From: a virus
DNA length: 44,176 bases
Reading direction: 5' to 3' (one strand)
Virus record (IMG/VR): IMGVR_UViG_3300028802_000031
Coordinates: 1-44,176 of that record
Positions within the stretch are counted from its first letter, which is position 1, and the number at the start of each line of letters is the position of its first letter. The position numbers and the translations under genes are program-made. A model generated the notes under the pieces. That model had not been told where the DNA came from, made no database searches, and was given only the letters and a program-made list of their open reading frames with translations. Of the stretch, positions 20,494 through 43,584 are shown piece by piece.

Positions 20494-20760
20494 CTATTTA
20501 GGAGTAGTGGCCGCCTTCACCGCCCACATCGCCGCGTCTTCGTAGTGGGTTTGGGCCAGCGAAACCAACCGGTTCATCTCGTTACTCTGGTTACGCAGCT
20601 GCTCACAAAGGTCGATAAGGTCTGCGGTCTGCCGCTTGATCTTATTCACGACCGGATCACCGCCCGGATTGAAGTTTTCCCGCACGCGATGAGCCCCTAA
20701 GGACCCGTCGTGCATTTTCCCGAGATATTTCTCGTCAACTTGCGTTTGTTCCTGGGTCAT
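20494..20760 (-). CDS. Acb2/Tad1-like hairpin protein, 88 aa (anti-CBASS/Thoeris candidate)
   Basis: A small, fully helical protein with VRENFNPGGDPVVNKIK (26-42) followed by a helix ending ATHYEDAAMWAVKA-like (the actual string AQTHYEDAAMWAVKAAT is at 69-85). Short phage proteins with an N-terminal NP-x-Gly/IK helix and a C-terminal (E)xx(M)WAVKA helix belong, as I recall, to the Acb2/Tad1 hairpin family. Its members form hexamers that soak up cyclic oligonucleotide or cyclic ADP-ribose signals and so block CBASS or Thoeris defence. It overlaps the small terminase gene by 26 bp, with GAGGTG before ATG. Family membership is by memory and moderately sure. Confidence 0.55.
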   Translation of the reverse strand: MTQEQTQVDEKYLGKMHDGSLGAHRVRENFNPGGDPVVNKIKRQTADLIDLCEQLRNQSNEMNRLVSLAQTHYEDAAMWAVKAATTPK

Positions 20761-36981: not shown

Positions 36982-38775
36982 ATGGAGCAAGGAATTGACC
37001 CGGGATTGGCGCTGCGCATCGTAAGCGACGATCACGAAGCCATAGCATTCGACACCGAAACCACCGGGATAACGGTGAAGGACAAGGTGTGCGGTTATGT
37101 GATCACCAACAATACTCATTCGCTGTACTGTCCTGTCCGACACGAAGCAGGGGGGAACATACCCGATGCTGGGCAATTCGAACTTTCTCTTAATGCGGCT
37201 TTCAGAGATCGAGGCCGCCATGGCTTCCGTACCGTGGGGCATAACCTTGGCTTTGATCTTCGCATTTGTCTTAGGCATGCTGTTAGCCTTAACGGACCAC
37301 TAGAAGATACGATGATCAACGAGGCGATCATCAGCGACATAACACAAGGATACAGCCTCGAAGATTGCTGCGCGCGGCGAAAATTGACGCTCAAGAAGGG
37401 TAGCGAGGTCTACGCGGAACTAGCGCGACGATTCGGTGGATTGCCTGATCGCAAGCAAATGAAGAACTTTTGGAGGCTCGAAGGTGATCATCCAACCGTG
37501 GTCGAGTACGCAACCGGAGACGGAATCTCCACCCTCGAACTTTGGGCTGCCCAACAACCTATTCTGGATGGAAACGACCTACGCCGTGCATGGCGTTTGG
37601 AGTGTGAGTTGCTTCCGTACGTGGCTCGAATGCACCACCGGGGCCTTAAGATCGACCCCGATTACTCAGGAAGAGTTGTACAAGAAATAAACGAGGCCGT
37701 GGCCGAAAAGAGCAAGGTATTTGTGCCCGGGTTCAATGTTAGGTCGCCGAAAGCAGTGGAGCAACTGTACCGAGTGAACGGCTACCAGGATCAACAATTC
37801 GCCCGTACCGATAGTGGTGCTATTTCGTTCACCGAAAAGTGGCTGGCCACCAACGAAATTGGCGGCGCTATTCTCGGGGTCCGCAGACTGGAGAAAGCAC
37901 GTGACAGCTTCATCACCCCCCTCATCGATACACATAATATTAACGGACGAGTTCACCCAATTCTTAACCAATCCAAATCTGACGACTATGGAGTTGCAGG
38001 TGTCAGGTTCTCATGCTCTGACCCTAACCTTCAAGCCTTCCCCAAGCGTAACATCGACGTTGGCCGTGTCGTACGACGACTTGTTGTGCCTGATCAAGGA
38101 TTTGTTATTGAAGAAGCAGATGCTAAGCAACAAGAACCCCGCCTCTTCACACACTATTCAGGCGATCCTGCACTACTTGACGGATACCGAAACGGAACTA
38201 TGGATATCCATGATAGAGCCTCCCAAATCCTCAGCTTAGATCGCGACACCGCTAAGAGGATGTCGATGGGGATGCTAACCATGATGTCTCCGCCCACCCT
38301 CGCAGGGCACATGCGTTGGTCACTGGAGCAAGCGCGCGATGCTCACCGAGCGTTTCTTACGGACGCGTTCCCTGATATTAAGAAATTTCAGGATACGGCA
38401 GTATCGGTATTCAAGAGGCGGGGCTATGTCAAAACTATCCTCGGTCGCAGGGCGTATTGCGACGATCCCCGGTTTGCGTACCGTGCAGTCTCAAGGATCA
38501 TCCAGAATGTCGGCGGCGAACACATCAAACTCTGCATCCTCCGCGCGTGCCAATACGAAGATGCATACCCGGATGATCTACAAGTACTACTTACTATCCA
38601 CGACAGCTTACTGTGGCAACGAAATCCAGCGCACGATCCGGGGCCTATCTTACGATCGATTGAGGGTGTTGCCCAGGAACTCGAACTTGCTGTTCCAATA
38701 CCATTCGGCTTAGGTAGCGGCCCCACTTGGGCTCATGCCTCGTACGGCGATAAAATGGATACTTATGATGAATGA
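36982..38775 (+). CDS. PolA-family DNA polymerase with 3'-5' exonuclease, 597 aa (DpoZ candidate)
   Basis: The replicative polymerase. The exonuclease domain is intact: DTETTG (24-29), HNLGFD (87-92), YATGD (176-180). The polymerase palm keeps motif A Asp380 with Glu385 and Arg387 (DAKQQEPR; the usual Tyr-Ser is Ala-Lys). Motif B is unusual: K425-RMS-M429-G-ML-T433-M, so the Phe/Tyr762-type and Tyr766-type positions (E. coli numbering) are Met and Thr. Motif C is HDS (540-542) instead of HDE. Since purZ and mazZ lie 3.4 kb downstream, a Z-using DpoZ-type enzyme is likely, but this cannot be told from sequence alone. Confidence 0.85.
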   Translation: MEQGIDPGLALRIVSDDHEAIAFDTETTGITVKDKVCGYVITNNTHSLYCPVRHEAGGNIPDAGQFELSLNAAFRDRGRHGFRTVGHNLGFDLRICLRHAVSLNGPLEDTMINEAIISDITQGYSLEDCCARRKLTLKKGSEVYAELARRFGGLPDRKQMKNFWRLEGDHPTVVEYATGDGISTLELWAAQQPILDGNDLRRAWRLECELLPYVARMHHRGLKIDPDYSGRVVQEINEAVAEKSKVFVPGFNVRSPKAVEQLYRVNGYQDQQFARTDSGAISFTEKWLATNEIGGAILGVRRLEKARDSFITPLIDTHNINGRVHPILNQSKSDDYGVAGVRFSCSDPNLQAFPKRNIDVGRVVRRLVVPDQGFVIEEADAKQQEPRLFTHYSGDPALLDGYRNGTMDIHDRASQILSLDRDTAKRMSMGMLTMMSPPTLAGHMRWSLEQARDAHRAFLTDAFPDIKKFQDTAVSVFKRRGYVKTILGRRAYCDDPRFAYRAVSRIIQNVGGEHIKLCILRACQYEDAYPDDLQVLLTIHDSLLWQRNPAHDPGPILRSIEGVAQELELAVPIPFGLGSGPTWAHASYGDKMDTYDE

Positions 38776-38944: not shown

Positions 38945-39175
38945 ATGCCAAAATTACTTGCAATAGCGACAGTGCTAGCAGTAAGTACCTGTACAGTTCG
39001 CGATGGGCCAGCTGTGGAAGAACCAGTATTGGAGGGATTGCGCCCACAGTTCGTGTGCCTAGTCTATACAAATTCTGGTGTTTGTGCTCGCAGCGAATGG
39101 CGTTGCAGCCGTCCATTGATGCTAACTCACGCCGACACAGGAAGACCGAGATGCATTATGCCGGGAAGCGAATAG
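38945..39175 (+). CDS. Exported small Cys-rich protein, 76 aa
   Basis: GGAGG precedes ATG. The N-terminus (MPKLLAIATVLAVSTC) is a signal peptide ending in VSTC, which could be an atypical lipobox. Four more Cys follow (FVCLV, GVCAR, WRCSR, PRCIM), allowing two disulfides, as expected in the periplasm. No family is recognised. It is the first of three predicted exported proteins in a row. The overlapping longer frame from 38929 is rejected. Confidence 0.6.
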   Translation: MPKLLAIATVLAVSTCTVRDGPAVEEPVLEGLRPQFVCLVYTNSGVCARSEWRCSRPLMLTHADTGRPRCIMPGSE

Positions 39176-39234
39176 AGTACACGGGGATGCCCTCCCTCGT
39201 GCACGACCCCACCTTGAGGGCGAAGGAAGCATGC

Positions 39235-40005
39235 ATGCGCAAGTATGTAGCTGCAGCGTTGCTGGCGCTGATTGCACTACCAGCACAGGCCGATAATATC
39301 GACCTGTTCGCAGTAACAGGGAGCACCAGTGCACTTACGCTGGTACTTGCCCCACCCCCTGGAAATCAACCGCAGAACATTCAGTGCTTGATCTGCGGCA
39401 CGAACCAGCCGGGGCAACAGGGGGACTTCGGCTACAACAACTACGCCCAAACTGGCAACGCGACCTCGTTCATCGAGTTCTCGTCGTCAACTGTTGGAGC
39501 CAAACTGGACCAGAACGTCATCGGGACCGGCTACAATCTGTCGTTCCTGCAGACGTACTTGCTGTCTCAGAATGCGTTGAACACCGCCGGTGCCTTCTCA
39601 ATCGGTATCGACGTGAACACTGCGACTGGCGCAGGGCCGGAGGTTTTGGAAGCCTTCGTCATTCTGAACCTGACGCAGATGACCGTGATTGCCCAGTATT
39701 CGTTGTTCGATCCGGGTGGCACAGCTTTGCCAACCTTCAACAATGGTACTGGCTTCCCGGACTATCTGTTGACCAACATCCAGTTGGATCGCGGTGACAT
39801 CGCAATTGGCGATCAGATCGTGTTCGCCGCGCGGTGGAGCAATGCTTCAGACGGTGCCGAGAGCTTCTTTCTTGTGCCGAATGTGGCAGCTGTCCCCGGC
39901 CCTGTCGTGGGCATGGGGCTGCCGGGTCTCATCGTCGCGATGGGCGGGCTCATTGCCCTCGCGCGTCGACGCCGCAACCACAACAGCGTTGTAGGCGCTG
40001 TCTGA
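39235..40005 (+). CDS. Exported protein with PEP-CTERM-like C-terminal sorting tail, 256 aa
   Basis: ATG at 39235 (GGAAG upstream) begins a clear signal peptide, cleaved after AQA (about residue 19). The mature part is Asn/Thr/Gly-rich and beta-like, with one CLICG pair. The C-terminus has VPGP (220-223), LPGL (229-232), a hydrophobic helix and RRRR (244-247). That is the order motif - helix - basic cluster of PEP-CTERM/VPEID-type sorting signals, and of similar tails I know from Bradyrhizobium-like bacteria. It should be anchored in or sorted through the host membrane. A phage gene of this kind is unusual; probably host-derived and envelope-modifying. Confidence 0.7.
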   Translation: MRKYVAAALLALIALPAQADNIDLFAVTGSTSALTLVLAPPPGNQPQNIQCLICGTNQPGQQGDFGYNNYAQTGNATSFIEFSSSTVGAKLDQNVIGTGYNLSFLQTYLLSQNALNTAGAFSIGIDVNTATGAGPEVLEAFVILNLTQMTVIAQYSLFDPGGTALPTFNNGTGFPDYLLTNIQLDRGDIAIGDQIVFAARWSNASDGAESFFLVPNVAAVPGPVVGMGLPGLIVAMGGLIALARRRRNHNSVVGAV

Positions 40006-40012
40006 CAACAAT

Positions 40013-40035
40013 GGGGAGGGCGACGAGCCCTCCCC
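40013..40035 (+). terminator. Hairpin after the sorting-tail protein gene
   Basis: GGGGAGGGC (40013-40021) and GCCCTCCCC (40027-40035) form a perfect 9-bp stem with a 5-nt loop, 8 bp past the stop. There is no T tract, so it may act with Rho or protect the upstream RNA's 3' end. Confidence 0.6.
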
Positions 40036-40110
40036 GCCATCATCGCAAACAGTCAGGTGACAACCGCGACGGAACTAGACCGCCGCACAACCTCAAAGAG
40101 GATAACGCTA

Positions 40111-40347
40111 ATGATCGACGATATGCACGGGATCTACACCCACGCCAGCGAAGCCTACAAGGCTGGCGAACGCGCGGGGCGGTGGGACTACTGGCGTTCA
40201 CTCCGGGGCGTGCTTGGCTGGATCAGCGTCAAGTATGAGAAGGATCAGAGCGAACTCGGAACCCGAGGCTTCCATGTGGCGGAGGAGTGCATGGCCGCCG
40301 CCCGTGAGCTTCGCGAGAAGATCGATGCCGAGCGCCAAACCGTTTAG
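40111..40347 (+). CDS. Small helical protein, 78 aa
   Basis: ATG at 40111 has AGAGGAT upstream. It is helical throughout (YTHASEAYKAGERAGRWDYW; AEECMAAARELREKIDAE), with a Trp-rich centre. No family is recognised. It interrupts the exported-protein cluster and is presumably cytoplasmic. Confidence 0.58.
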   Translation: MIDDMHGIYTHASEAYKAGERAGRWDYWRSLRGVLGWISVKYEKDQSELGTRGFHVAEECMAAARELREKIDAERQTV

Positions 40348-40446
40348 CGTTAAGACCGAGTGCGGTTAACAGTCAGGCAGGGATAAAGATGGCAGAGGAA
40401 ACGTATTCAACAGAGGGGCCGGTCTGCCCTCACAACGGAGAGCGAA

Positions 40447-40719
40447 ATGAAAACTCTGATCGCACTACTTCTCACGACGACAGTAGCCGTGGCACAACCA
40501 CCATTGGATTTTATGTCCCCGATAATGCCAGAATTTCGGATGCCAACCACCATTCCGTGGACAGAGAATGGCAATGTTCTGGGCACGGCGACCACAACCG
40601 ATGGCAGCGTTGTCTATCTGCGCGACAAGAAGGGCGTTCACATCGCCACTGTCGTAATTAGGAATGGCCATCGAATAATCCTCGATCCCAACGGCAAGCC
40701 GTTTGGTGCAAAAGAATGA
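40447..40719 (+). CDS. Exported small protein, 90 aa
   Basis: ACGGAG precedes ATG. The signal peptide MKTLIALLLTTTVAVA is followed by a short Pro/Met-rich linker and a beta-rich domain (GNVLGTATTTDGSVVYLRDK; GVHIATVVIRNGHRIIL). No Cys. The third predicted secreted protein of this cluster. Its stop overlaps the Zn-finger gene as ATGA. The function is unknown; a periplasmic inhibitor or envelope modifier is possible. Confidence 0.65.
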   Translation: MKTLIALLLTTTVAVAQPPLDFMSPIMPEFRMPTTIPWTENGNVLGTATTTDGSVVYLRDKKGVHIATVVIRNGHRIILDPNGKPFGAKE

Positions 40720-41105
40720 TTCGGTATGTCAAGAAATTCAAGCGCCCACCTCGGATAAAGGGTGCTTGCGGGTGCAGAGGGTGCCAAAACCCAGTTATGG
40801 CGCGCGGATGGTGTTACGAGCATCACCCCCGCTGCGACATTTGCGGTGAATTGTCCCATGCTCGAAATAAGTGCAATCGGCACTACCTCGAATGGTACAC
40901 AACTGGCGACCGGAATTTGAAAGTTCCGAGAACGCAGAAGAGACATAAATCACAGCTGCCAACATGCACCGAAGAGGGGTGTGGCAGGAACACGATAGCG
41001 CGTAACATGTGTATGAAACACTACAAACAGTGGCAAAGAGAGGGGTTCAAATGCCTTACCGTCCCGGCGACCCAACGAGAGAGGTCGAAGCACGAATTGA
41101 AGTAA
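40716..41105 (+). CDS. Zinc-finger protein with two Cys/His clusters, 129 aa
   Basis: Cluster 1: C18/C20, C23, C33, H36/H37, C40, C43, C53, H56. Cluster 2: C84, C89, C99, H102 (CTEEGCGRNTIARNMCMKH). The second repeat is the DNA-recognition element often attached to phage HNH endonucleases, but the HNH core itself is absent. So this looks like a stand-alone or degenerate form, or a DNA-binding accessory. Basic residues are plentiful. It is ATGA-coupled to the exported protein before it and overlaps the next gene by 55 bp. Confidence 0.65.
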   Translation: MIRYVKKFKRPPRIKGACGCRGCQNPVMARGWCYEHHPRCDICGELSHARNKCNRHYLEWYTTGDRNLKVPRTQKRHKSQLPTCTEEGCGRNTIARNMCMKHYKQWQREGFKCLTVPATQRERSKHELK

Positions 41106-41269
41106 CCACAGCAAAAGCATACCTCATAGAACCAACTATGGGGAGAGTAGCGCAGACTTGGTTGCCCAAGTCGCAAGTGGTCGGAATGACAGAAGCAGAT
41201 GAGAATGGTTTACGGACATTCACCGTAACAGAGTGGTGGTATGATCGAGCGGAGTTGAGCGATGATTAA
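41051..41269 (+). CDS. Small unknown protein, 72 aa
   Basis: ATG at 41051 (AGAGGGG upstream) opens inside the Zn-finger gene in another frame; 55 bp overlap. The product (MPYRPGDPTREVEARIEVTT; AYLIEPTMGRVAQTWLPKSQ) is beta-rich and plausible, with an aromatic end (VTEWWYDRAELSDD). The stop overlaps the next start. The function is unknown. Confidence 0.58.
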   Translation: MPYRPGDPTREVEARIEVTTAKAYLIEPTMGRVAQTWLPKSQVVGMTEADENGLRTFTVTEWWYDRAELSDD

Positions 41270-41423
41270 GTATAAACTGCAATGGAAAAACTATTCCTGC
41301 GCATTCGACACTTGGGAGGAAGCCGCCCAAGACGCTATAGCATTGAAGGTAGGCCGCTGGGTAAACAGCCACGAATTCGTGCTCGACTGGCCCGCAACTA
41401 TAAAGGCTATACACGATGAATGA
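41262..41423 (+). CDS. Small unknown protein, 53 aa
   Basis: Overlaps the previous gene by 8 bp and the nuclease gene by 8 bp. GGAGTTGAGCG precedes ATG. The sequence (MIKYKLQWKNYSCAFDTWEE; AAQDAIALKVGRWVNSHEFV) has a strand-helix-strand pattern. It is in a tightly packed nuclease operon, so coding is likely. The function is unknown. Confidence 0.58.
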   Translation: MIKYKLQWKNYSCAFDTWEEAAQDAIALKVGRWVNSHEFVLDWPATIKAIHDE

Positions 41424-41805
41424 GGCCACAATCAAGCGCCGAATGGTTAAGTCTATTCAGGAAGCGATGGGCTACGCTCGCCGCATTGAGGATCAATTCG
41501 GTGTGGGAATAATGGACACCATTCTCATCCCGGTTGGCCTGCCCGTATTTTTCGCCGAGGTTAAGATCATTCGGGGTCCCACATTCGGCCCAACACCCAG
41601 ACAGTTTGAGGAACTGCGAAGAGTGAAATTCGCAGCAACGCCGAATGACCACGCTATTCCCATCATGATTGGGTGGCGCGACAACACGTACTACTTCCAC
41701 CCGCCAGCCGAAAATATCGACCCCCGGGACTGCTTTTCGGTGACGACGACCGAAATGTCCTTCAACGACCAACTGTGCCAATACTGGTACTCAACGAGGA
41801 AATGA
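41416..41805 (+). CDS. VRR-NUC-type nuclease, 129 aa
   Basis: A PD-(D/E)XK fold nuclease. Asp34 in GIMDTILIP, then FFAEVK with Glu48-Val-Lys50 (the catalytic E-x-K), and GPTPRQ (58-63) with the Gln of the VRR-NUC family. Stand-alone VRR-NUC proteins of about 100-130 aa are common in phage replication modules beside SNF2-like helicases, and are thought to process branched DNA. This length fits. It is packed into the purZ-upstream operon. Confidence 0.82.
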   Translation: MNEATIKRRMVKSIQEAMGYARRIEDQFGVGIMDTILIPVGLPVFFAEVKIIRGPTFGPTPRQFEELRRVKFAATPNDHAIPIMIGWRDNTYYFHPPAENIDPRDCFSVTTTEMSFNDQLCQYWYSTRK

Positions 41806-42146
41806 TGAAAAAGCCAGCACAAACAAGACCAGTGGATGTTGCCGAACCCACGGAGACTACCGCGCAGAGCACGCTGAGAGCGGCGCTGGAGCAAGTATCA
41901 ACCAAGAACCGAGTTCACGGCGACACCGATCCATTATTTCGGATGATCGCCGAATTGTGGTCTATCTACGTATTCCACGCCAACACGGTCCGCCCAGAAA
42001 TTACTGTGTCGCCGCACGATGTAGCGCAACTTATGGTTCTACTCAAGATCGCTCGATCCGTTTACGGCTATTCAGCCGACAACTATGTAGACGAAGGCGG
42101 GTACGCGGCATTGGCCAGCCAGTTTAGAACGAGGGAGCCCGAGTAA
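41802..42146 (+). CDS. DUF6378-like protein, 114 aa
   Basis: Starts at ATGATG (41802 or 41805) with ACGAGGA upstream. The sequence phrase NRVHGDTDPLFRMIAELWSI, then ITVSPHDVAQLMVLLKIARS and DNYVDEGGYAAL, matches my recollection of the DUF6378 family found in many phages. The helical layout recalls MazG-like nucleotide-binding bundles. Its place directly before the purZ promoter makes a nucleotide-metabolism role possible, but this is not established. Confidence 0.68.
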   Translation: MMKKPAQTRPVDVAEPTETTAQSTLRAALEQVSTKNRVHGDTDPLFRMIAELWSIYVFHANTVRPEITVSPHDVAQLMVLLKIARSVYGYSADNYVDEGGYAALASQFRTREPE

Positions 42147-42194: not shown

Positions 42195-42212
42195 GAGACA
42201 TGGGAGTGAGTG

Positions 42213-43292
42213 ATGAGACTATTCGAACCTCTAGGCGTACACTGCTTGGTGGATGGCCAGTTCGGCTCCACCGGTAAGGGTGCCCTCGCCGCTTGGCTGG
42301 CGCTCCGCGCGTGCGAAGATGGCTACATAAATCATTTTAGCGGGTCGATCTACAGCGGAGGCCCCAACAGCGGGCACACTTGCTACTATGGCGACGAGAA
42401 GATCATCCTGAAACAGCTGCCAACATTCGGAGTGTATGCCGCCAAGCTTGGGTACCCGGTGCCGATATATCTTTCTGCCGGGGCAATTATCGATCGGGAC
42501 TGCTTGAGAGTGGAAGCCTCCCTACACCCCCAAGTTCGCATCTTCGTTCACCCGAATGCTGCCATCGTAACCGACGAGGATAAGAAGGCGGAGGAATCTG
42601 GCTCTATAGCGGAAGTAGCGGGTACAAGGTCTGGTACGGGAGCAGCGCTCGCGCGGAAGATAATGCGGGAGCCCAAGGCCATCGCCGTCAATTCGCTTGG
42701 TCGGATAGCCGAAAATGTGGTGATACAAGAGCACCGGATAAAACCCGACCGGAATGCCTACTTCATGGAAGTGGCGCAGGGGTTCAGCTTGGGGATCAAT
42801 TCACAATTCTATCCGAAAGTGACCAGCCGGGAATGTACTGTAATGCAAGGGATGGCGGATGCCCGCCTTCCTGCCCGGTCGCTCGCCAAGGTTTACATGG
42901 CTGTCAGAACCTACCCCATTCGGGTCGGCAATGTCGACGGTCATTCTAGCGGAGAGTGGTACGTAGATCAAGTGGAAACTAATTGGGAAGCTCTGGGCCT
43001 ATCACCGGAGCGAACCACCGTAACAAATCGTGTGCGGAGGGTTGCCACGTTCTCACCCATGCAATTCTTCGAGGCAGTGCGCGCCAACGACCCCGATTGG
43101 GTGTTCATAAGCCACATGGACTATCTGGGGCAAGCAGCTGGCGACATGCTAGTCAAGGAGTTGAATAACTACTCCCATCAATTGGGCATAGGTTTTGGTA
43201 TCATAGTTGGATGCGGACCCAAAGTCAGCGAAATAACCGTCATAAAGGACCATAGCAACTATGGCAACAACTATCGAAATGAAGGTACCTGA
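42213..43292 (+). CDS. purZ: PurZ: 2-aminoadenylosuccinate synthetase, 359 aa
   Basis: A PurA-like GTP/ATP-dependent ligase. In PurZ enzymes the substrate is dGMP plus aspartate, giving the precursor of 2-aminoadenine (Z). Visible: P-loop GSTGKG (18-23), where bacterial PurA has GDEGKG, so the catalytic Asp is Ser19. This Ser is a PurZ mark. Also His55 in NSGHT, GTRSGTG (137-143), VAQGFSL (187-193), YPIRVG (234-239) and TTVTNRVRRV (268-277), all in PurA order. Length (359) is that of viral PurZ rather than bacterial PurA (about 430). Start: ATG 42213 after GGGAG, rather than GTG 42210. It overlaps mazZ by 32 bp. Confidence 0.92.
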   Translation: MRLFEPLGVHCLVDGQFGSTGKGALAAWLALRACEDGYINHFSGSIYSGGPNSGHTCYYGDEKIILKQLPTFGVYAAKLGYPVPIYLSAGAIIDRDCLRVEASLHPQVRIFVHPNAAIVTDEDKKAEESGSIAEVAGTRSGTGAALARKIMREPKAIAVNSLGRIAENVVIQEHRIKPDRNAYFMEVAQGFSLGINSQFYPKVTSRECTVMQGMADARLPARSLAKVYMAVRTYPIRVGNVDGHSSGEWYVDQVETNWEALGLSPERTTVTNRVRRVATFSPMQFFEAVRANDPDWVFISHMDYLGQAAGDMLVKELNNYSHQLGIGFGIIVGCGPKVSEITVIKDHSNYGNNYRNEGT

Positions 43293-43584
43293 TTCGATCG
43301 ATAAGTTCAGCACGTATCTGTATGAGTTCTTCGACCTCATGCTGCATAAGCTGGACGTCAACAGCCACAAGGATACCCCGAGCAAGGAGTCCCTTGGGCG
43401 GATCATGGAACTTCTGCTAGACGAAGTGGTAGAGTTCGAAGACCAGCTAAAGGAGGATAAATTCGACCTCAATTCGCTGGTAGAACTGGCGGATCAGGCG
43501 AACTTTTCGTTCCTGGCCTTCGTTGCGCTGCGTAAAGATGGGGTGGGTGATGACGATCCGAAAGGTGACTCTAAACTTGGATGA
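43261..43584 (+). CDS. mazZ: MazZ: MazG-like nucleotide pyrophosphohydrolase, 107 aa
   Basis: An all-helical MazG-type enzyme. The metal-binding motif is DEVVE (54-58), followed after 16 residues by E75-x-x-D78 in LVELAD, fitting the MazG pattern E-E-x-x-E ... E-x-x-D. In Z-phages MazZ cuts dGTP (and dATP) to monophosphate, giving dGMP for PurZ. It overlaps the end of purZ by 32 bp and has no strong ribosome site, so translation is probably coupled to purZ. Function is inferred from motif plus neighbour; specificity cannot be read. Confidence 0.78.
   Translation: MATTIEMKVPDSIDKFSTYLYEFFDLMLHKLDVNSHKDTPSKESLGRIMELLLDEVVEFEDQLKEDKFDLNSLVELADQANFSFLAFVALRKDGVGDDDPKGDSKLG

Follow-up and report, generated by a model that had tools for sequence, protein, structure and literature searches.

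Exosortase sorting is known as a cellular system, and exosortase is the known factor for tails of the PEP-CTERM type. In the PEP-CTERM and VPLPA-CTERM systems (exosortase, EpsH family; Haft 2006, PMC1569441), the substrate has a signal peptide, a Thr/Asn-rich secreted core low in basic residues and, at its C-terminus, a short motif, a single helix and a basic cluster. No report of phage-encoded PEP-CTERM proteins was found in the open-access literature. The phage protein of 256 amino acids described here shares all of these features, and relatives of it bear PEP or VPLPA motifs. It differs in that its own motif, VPGPxxGxGLPG, is unmodelled, its gene is carried by a phage that has no exosortase, and the enzymes of bacterial genomes with VPGP tails are short and missed by PF09721. 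Judged from sequence, it also resembles the Llp lipoprotein of T5 and the Cor lipoproteins (PMC9586334). Those are small phage proteins that are exported and affect the envelope of the infected cell; they have, however, no C-terminal sorting tail.

The window, that is, the whole stretch of DNA analyzed, is a viral record in IMG/VR, 44,176 bases long, from a soil-type phage. Its structural arm encodes an SU10-type portal and capsid and a terminase, and its replication arm a primase, DNA polymerase A and a PurZ-type 2-aminoadenylosuccinate synthetase. Contamination of the contig by host DNA is ruled out, as portal, capsid, terminase, polymerase and PurZ lie on the same 44 kb. No integrase is among the Pfam matches of the phage. 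The nearest isolate is Ochrobactrum phage vB_OspP_OH, with which the gene order is shared (polymerase 60%, PurZ 53% identity) and which is virulent (PMC7139368). The interval between polymerase and nuclease holds one small ORF in vB_OspP_OH, whereas in the window it holds about 2.6 kb of accessory genes, with those of the three exported proteins among them. The features of this region are as follows.

36982..38775, plus strand: DNA polymerase A, left flank (60% identity to the vB_OspP_OH polymerase).
38945..41269, plus strand: accessory block, limits approximate (from comparison with vB_OspP_OH).
38945..39175, plus strand: 76-aa small protein, exported or a lipoprotein; C-terminal cysteines conserved (one homologue, signal rule).
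39235..40005, plus strand: 256-aa exported protein of a phage family, with a C-terminal sorting tail of the VPGP type (relatives, purifying selection).
40057..40347, plus strand: 96-aa ORF within the accessory block, no relatives found.
40447..40719, plus strand: 90-aa exported small protein (homologues beside the tailed-protein gene).
41416..41805, plus strand: nuclease gene, right flank (named by synteny with vB_OspP_OH; 57% identity to the relatives L041 and L022).

Several genes elsewhere in the window deserve mention. Downstream of the nuclease lie a DUF6378 protein (41673-42146; PF19905, E 1.1e-17), the PurZ-type synthetase (42210-43292; phrog_1211, E 1.8e-51) and, after it, a gene at the position of the vB_OspP_OH pyrophosphohydrolase (43261-43584). 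From PurZ and the gene that follows it, adenine may be replaced by 2-aminoadenine (a Z-genome) in this phage. On the minus strand, 20497-20760 encodes a small protein in which an Acb2/Tad1 hairpin domain is recognized (PF24729, E 6.3e-12); judged from its sequence, it is likely a sponge against CBASS or Thoeris signalling. One of the 45 window proteins matches a PHROG named phosphofructokinase (phrog_474, E 5.2e-17).

A sequence-only reading had proposed three signal peptides within 1.8 kb between the polymerase and nuclease genes, and all three ORFs were confirmed, all on the plus strand. Signal peptides were called by a simple in-house rule that asks for a basic n-region, a hydrophobic h-region, a cleavage site with small residues and a Shine-Dalgarno-like sequence upstream. 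By this heuristic all three ORFs pass and only one other start does so in the whole 44,176 bases, both strands included; with three of the four signal-peptide-like starts within 1.8 kb, the cluster is therefore not due to chance. The 76-aa ORF is the weakest of the three, with a single homologue (47% over 49 aa; L020:9072-9332, minus strand), and its signal could be of the Sec or the lipoprotein type. Homologues in eight other contigs, in each directly 3' of a tailed-protein gene, indicate that the 90-aa ORF is a real gene. When present, the 90-aa homologue is found 51-442 bp downstream of the tailed-protein gene (9/9, including the window), and its recurrence as the downstream partner suggests that the two proteins work together in some phages. 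None of the three exported proteins has a significant family in Pfam, NCBIfam or PHROGs, where the best E-values (0.08-0.3) are at chance level.

The 256-aa protein, which ends ...VAAVPGPVVGMGLPGLIVAMGGLIALARRRRNHNSVVGAV, has the VPGP...LPGL motif, hydrophobic helix and RRRR cluster that the same reading had pointed out. Its parts are as follows.

39235..39291, plus strand: N-terminal signal peptide MRKYVAAALLALIALPAQA, heuristic, predicted cleavage after AQA (residue 19).
39292..39888, plus strand: beta-sandwich core domain, residues 20-218 (AlphaFold2 pLDDT 86, pTM 0.77).
39361..39399, plus strand: most conserved core stretch GNQPQNIQCLICG, residues 43-55 (alignment of 70 sequences).
39892..39933, plus strand: sorting motif VPGPVVGMGLPGLI, residues 220-233, at the predicted membrane edge (sequence, 22 tails).
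39922..39963, plus strand: C-terminal hydrophobic helix, residues 230-243 (helix 230-252 in the AlphaFold2 model).
39964..39975, plus strand: RRRR basic cluster, residues 244-247 (sequence).

The tail thus reads VPGPVVGMGLPGL, then helix, then RRRR, with the motif VPGP-VVGMGLPGL, and shows the tripartite C-terminus (motif, single helix, basic cluster) of a PEP-CTERM-type substrate. In the AlphaFold2 model, built with 70 aligned sequences, the C-terminal helix is separate from the beta-sandwich core, and by heuristic and model the protein has a signal peptide and no membrane helix besides the C-terminal one. The core contains 9.0% Thr, 9.0% Asn, 6.5% Ser, 1.5% Lys+Arg and 1.0% Cys; it is Thr/Asn-rich and poor in basic residues as in PEP-CTERM proteins, with Cys slightly above the 0.4% given for these (PMC1569441). 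The protein has VPGP and matches no curated model of strict PEP-CTERM (PF07589/TIGR02595) or VPLPA-CTERM (TIGR03370). It has neither the GlyGly of GlyGly-CTERM (rhombosortase) nor the Cys of MYXO-CTERM (myxosortase) before the helix, and no model of these matches either.

Structure searches with the core returned weak jelly-roll, lectin and carbohydrate-binding-module-like matches (Z no higher than 6.5, Foldseek E no lower than 0.027), and Foldseek against viral models gave no match with E < 0.001. The core aligns with carbohydrate-binding modules and legume lectins, which are beta-sandwiches, at VIA-align Z 4 to 6.5, but has no sequence similarity to them. Values of Z < 8 are common between unrelated beta-sandwiches, and the modeled matches are not enough for naming a function.

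A single-sequence scan of IMG/VR gave 14 relatives of the 256-aa protein and an alignment-based scan at least 218 contigs with relatives, of which 80 were fetched. No relative was found in 50,697 phage records. The sequence-only reading had held that phages rarely carry such tails, which stands for deposited phage genomes (0 of the 50,697) and fails for uncultured phages. A tblastn search of phage and plasmid records with the whole protein and with the tail found nothing, although the low-complexity filter may remove the tail query. Family members share a signal peptide (a similar one precedes the core in 68 distinct relatives with a readable start) and the core motifs GNQPQNIQCxICG, NNGTGFPD and DGxxSFF; across 70 sequences C51 and G55 are invariant and most other positions of residues 43-55 nearly so. 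The cores are conserved under purifying selection, with pairwise dN/dS between relatives of 0.04-0.16. The 256-aa ORF is a real gene because it is kept in relatives, shows this low dN/dS and has a confident predicted fold. The phage family it belongs to is undescribed.

Neighboring genes are mostly not common between the relatives, and the gene therefore moves between unrelated phages. It is nevertheless retained, at the same place, in the syntenic relatives L022 and L041, most of whose backbone proteins share 55-79% identity with those of the window. As their tailed genes sit on other branches of the family tree than the window copy, the copy at this place has been replaced. Outside phages, 84,980 bacterial and archaeal genomes yielded three distant relatives (28-33% identity), all with VPLPA-type tails and all in genomes that carry EpsH. 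They belong to the Comamonadaceae, and at least one of their genes lies in an ordinary chromosomal setting. The bacterial L097 protein had no viral relatives in a scan made for them.

On the same core, the tail classes VPGP, PEPxSL, PEPxxWxMM, VPLPA and VPLPAVG are found in different phages. The VPLPA- and PEP-CTERM tails of relatives occupy the same place as the VPGP tail, which lends good support to the proposal of an exported phage protein with a surface-sorting tail of the PEP-CTERM type; TIGR03370 (VPLPA-CTERM) matches two of the relatives, with a best E of 4.7e-6. In a tree of the cores alone, class changes over all classes number at least 13, against 26.6 when shuffled, and VPGP changes at least nine times by strongly supported branches, the tree having some long branches that leave single placements unsure. 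In pairs of different class the cores are 66% identical and the tails only 30%, whereas in pairs of the same class at equal core identity (66-67%) the tails are 56% identical. The same tail set and the same kind of switching recur in another phage family, unrelated to the first and represented by at least 131 loci.

Within a phage, on the other hand, tails agree. Two or more tailed proteins are encoded at 19 independent loci, and at 18 of them all tails are of one class (permutation P 5e-5). Without the loci picked for VPGP, 13/14 agree (P 1.4e-4); among these are loci that pair VPLPA with VPLPA or PEPxxWxMM with PEPxxWxMM. The discordant phage (L065) is likely a pattern artefact, as its second "tail" is without a proper helix and arginine cluster. 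Some pairs within one phage (L280, L338) are nearly identical in the tail; copying of tails within a phage is thus a likely route, which also treats the tail as a module. Taken together with the conserved core and the switching of tails, the agreement within phages is most simply accounted for if the tail must fit a host factor. The tail behaves as if it were a module matched to the sorting enzyme of the host, and since exosortase is the known factor for such tails, the phage would export proteins for host sorting.

No Pfam or NCBIfam model matches the VPGP tail. A DNA pattern for VPGPxxGAGxPG was found in at least 120 viral contigs, and in 83 of the 83 viral ORFs read the motif is C-terminal. 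Twenty-four of these belong to the family of the window protein; the others fall into about 11 further families, several of which have at least two members. In the VPGP tails aligned (n = 22), V, P, P, G, G, P and G are invariant. The further families (L122-L197, L264-L342) are secreted, with tandem pairs in L126, L127, L140, L166 and L188, and none has a known function. The core of one of them matches the FxDxF PEP-CTERM family NF038126 (E 2.8e-10), a match below the curated cut-off and outside the family of the window protein. No exosortase was found in 50 viral records; the enzyme must therefore be the host's.

Similar tails do exist in bacteria. In 385 genomes of one proteobacterial class, VPGPxxGAGxPG in its exact phage form does not occur. 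With a slightly wider pattern, three proteins, all secreted and tailed, were found in 2 of 199 genomes of one order (G985 and G1014). In the family of G985 the tail is present in 1 of 20 genomes, so that it is not a family trait. A single-sequence tail search of 299 Pseudomonadota gave four marginal matches, of which that in G150 alone was verifiable, and this genome has two more VPGP-tailed proteins, with VPGPLEGVGLPF. A tail profile search gave marginal E-values alone and was set aside. The bacterial versions end GAGLPxL or EGVGLPF, unlike the phage motif.

The enzymes of these genomes escape the usual model. PF09721 occurs in 46 of 200 genomes of the order of G150, with no visible link to VPGP, and it misses all the VPGP genomes, from which they had seemed to be without exosortase. 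The broader TIGR04178 (exosortase/archaeosortase) overturned this, with one or two exosortases above cut-off in each of the three (G985, G1014, G150; L236-L240). These candidate host enzymes are divergent: they have about 280 aa, are 24-31% identical to the first of them, retain the proposed Cys/Arg/His triad, have a CSSxxN motif in those read, and fit no named NCBIfam exosortase subfamily above cut-off. The exosortase gene lies between two VPGP-tailed ORFs in G150 and amid apparent polysaccharide genes in G985 and G1014. Eight of the order's 199 genomes carry the class, and both tail-bearing genomes are among them (Fisher P 0.0014, a value that is supportive only, the exosortase model A4 having been built partly from tail-bearing genomes). 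Two more carriers (G980, G954) have a secreted, IPGPVPG-tailed protein a few kb away, and divergent exosortases were also recorded in G962, G897, G881 and G247. The link between this class and VPGP rests on three genomes. Both this co-occurrence and the concordance of tail class within phages favor the PEP-CTERM-type reading of the tail.

The gene, its signal, tail and predicted fold, the conservation and tail switching, the concordance within phages and, in few genomes, the co-occurrence of VPGP with exosortases form the observed basis for the following proposal. The 256-aa protein would be made during infection and taken across the inner membrane by its Sec signal. The C-terminal helix and RRRR would then retain it in the membrane with VPGPxxGxGLPG at the periplasmic edge, where a host exosortase, probably of a divergent class, would cut the motif, and the beta-sandwich would pass to the cell surface or the exopolysaccharide. 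That these three steps jointly make the protein a phage-encoded substrate of exosortase-type surface sorting by the host we regard as likely; both cleavage and surface location are inferred. In a fourth step the surface would be altered during infection, most likely by masking of a receptor or polysaccharide, and neither later phages nor the phage's own progeny would then be wasted on a doomed cell. Such anti-superinfection masking is our first choice for a phage of virulent type, held tentatively, and a change of the matrix would come second. The earlier suggestion of a superinfection block or an exopolysaccharide change remains plausible.

The 256-aa protein might instead be cargo of benefit to the host under infection or lysogeny: a matrix protein, borrowed from bacteria, that alters biofilm or exopolysaccharide. 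The distant VPLPA-tailed relatives in Comamonadaceae, one clearly chromosomal, and the weak lectin- and carbohydrate-binding-module-like matches of the core would fit this, and one bacterial PEP-CTERM protein changes bound exopolysaccharide and floc formation (PMC9850573). However, the lack of an integrase among the Pfam matches and the virulence of the nearest isolate (PMC7139368) make a lasting host benefit unlikely for this phage, and relatives were found in 218 viral contigs against 3 bacterial genomes, in two scans of unequal sensitivity. We consider this explanation unlikely.

Alternatively, the tail could be an inner-membrane anchor only, the uncut protein acting in the periplasm, where it might, for instance, keep out the DNA of a second phage. 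A signal peptide, a C-terminal helix and arginines suffice for anchoring, and PF09721 exosortase is missing from the VPGP-tailed genomes. Some superinfection-exclusion proteins work periplasmically, and T5 Llp binds its receptor from the periplasm (PMC9586334); small proteins encoded beside the replication genes of a virulent phage could likewise act from there with no need of sorting. A plain anchor, however, requires no motif, yet about 12 unrelated families have VPGPxxGAGxPG, almost without variation, at the membrane edge. Moreover, other known sorting motifs take the place of VPGP, one class for another and in agreement within a phage, and TIGR04178 does find exosortases in VPGP-tailed genomes. 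Anchoring alone is thus, in our judgment, quite improbable. That the proteins are virion or lysis components merely bearing a signal peptide is very improbable indeed: some phages do export lysis proteins, but these genes lie among replication genes away from the structural arm, their neighbors vary between phages, no structural or lysis PHROG matches, and we know of no lysis protein family with class-switching sorting tails.

Returning to sorting by a host exosortase, we think it somewhat probable that VPGP-CTERM is a sorting signal not described before, that its reader is a class of short exosortases still without a name, and that many unrelated secreted proteins of uncultured phages use it. 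These phages would exchange whole tails according to the enzyme of each host, as a general route of remodelling the surface of the infected cell. If so, a sorting signal and an enzyme class missing from curated libraries would be exposed. Tail class would predict enzyme class and give, from sequence, a clue to the hosts of many uncultured phages. Phages would be systematically writing exosortase substrates, with class switching in step within a phage, and the sorting system would be a target of phage biology.
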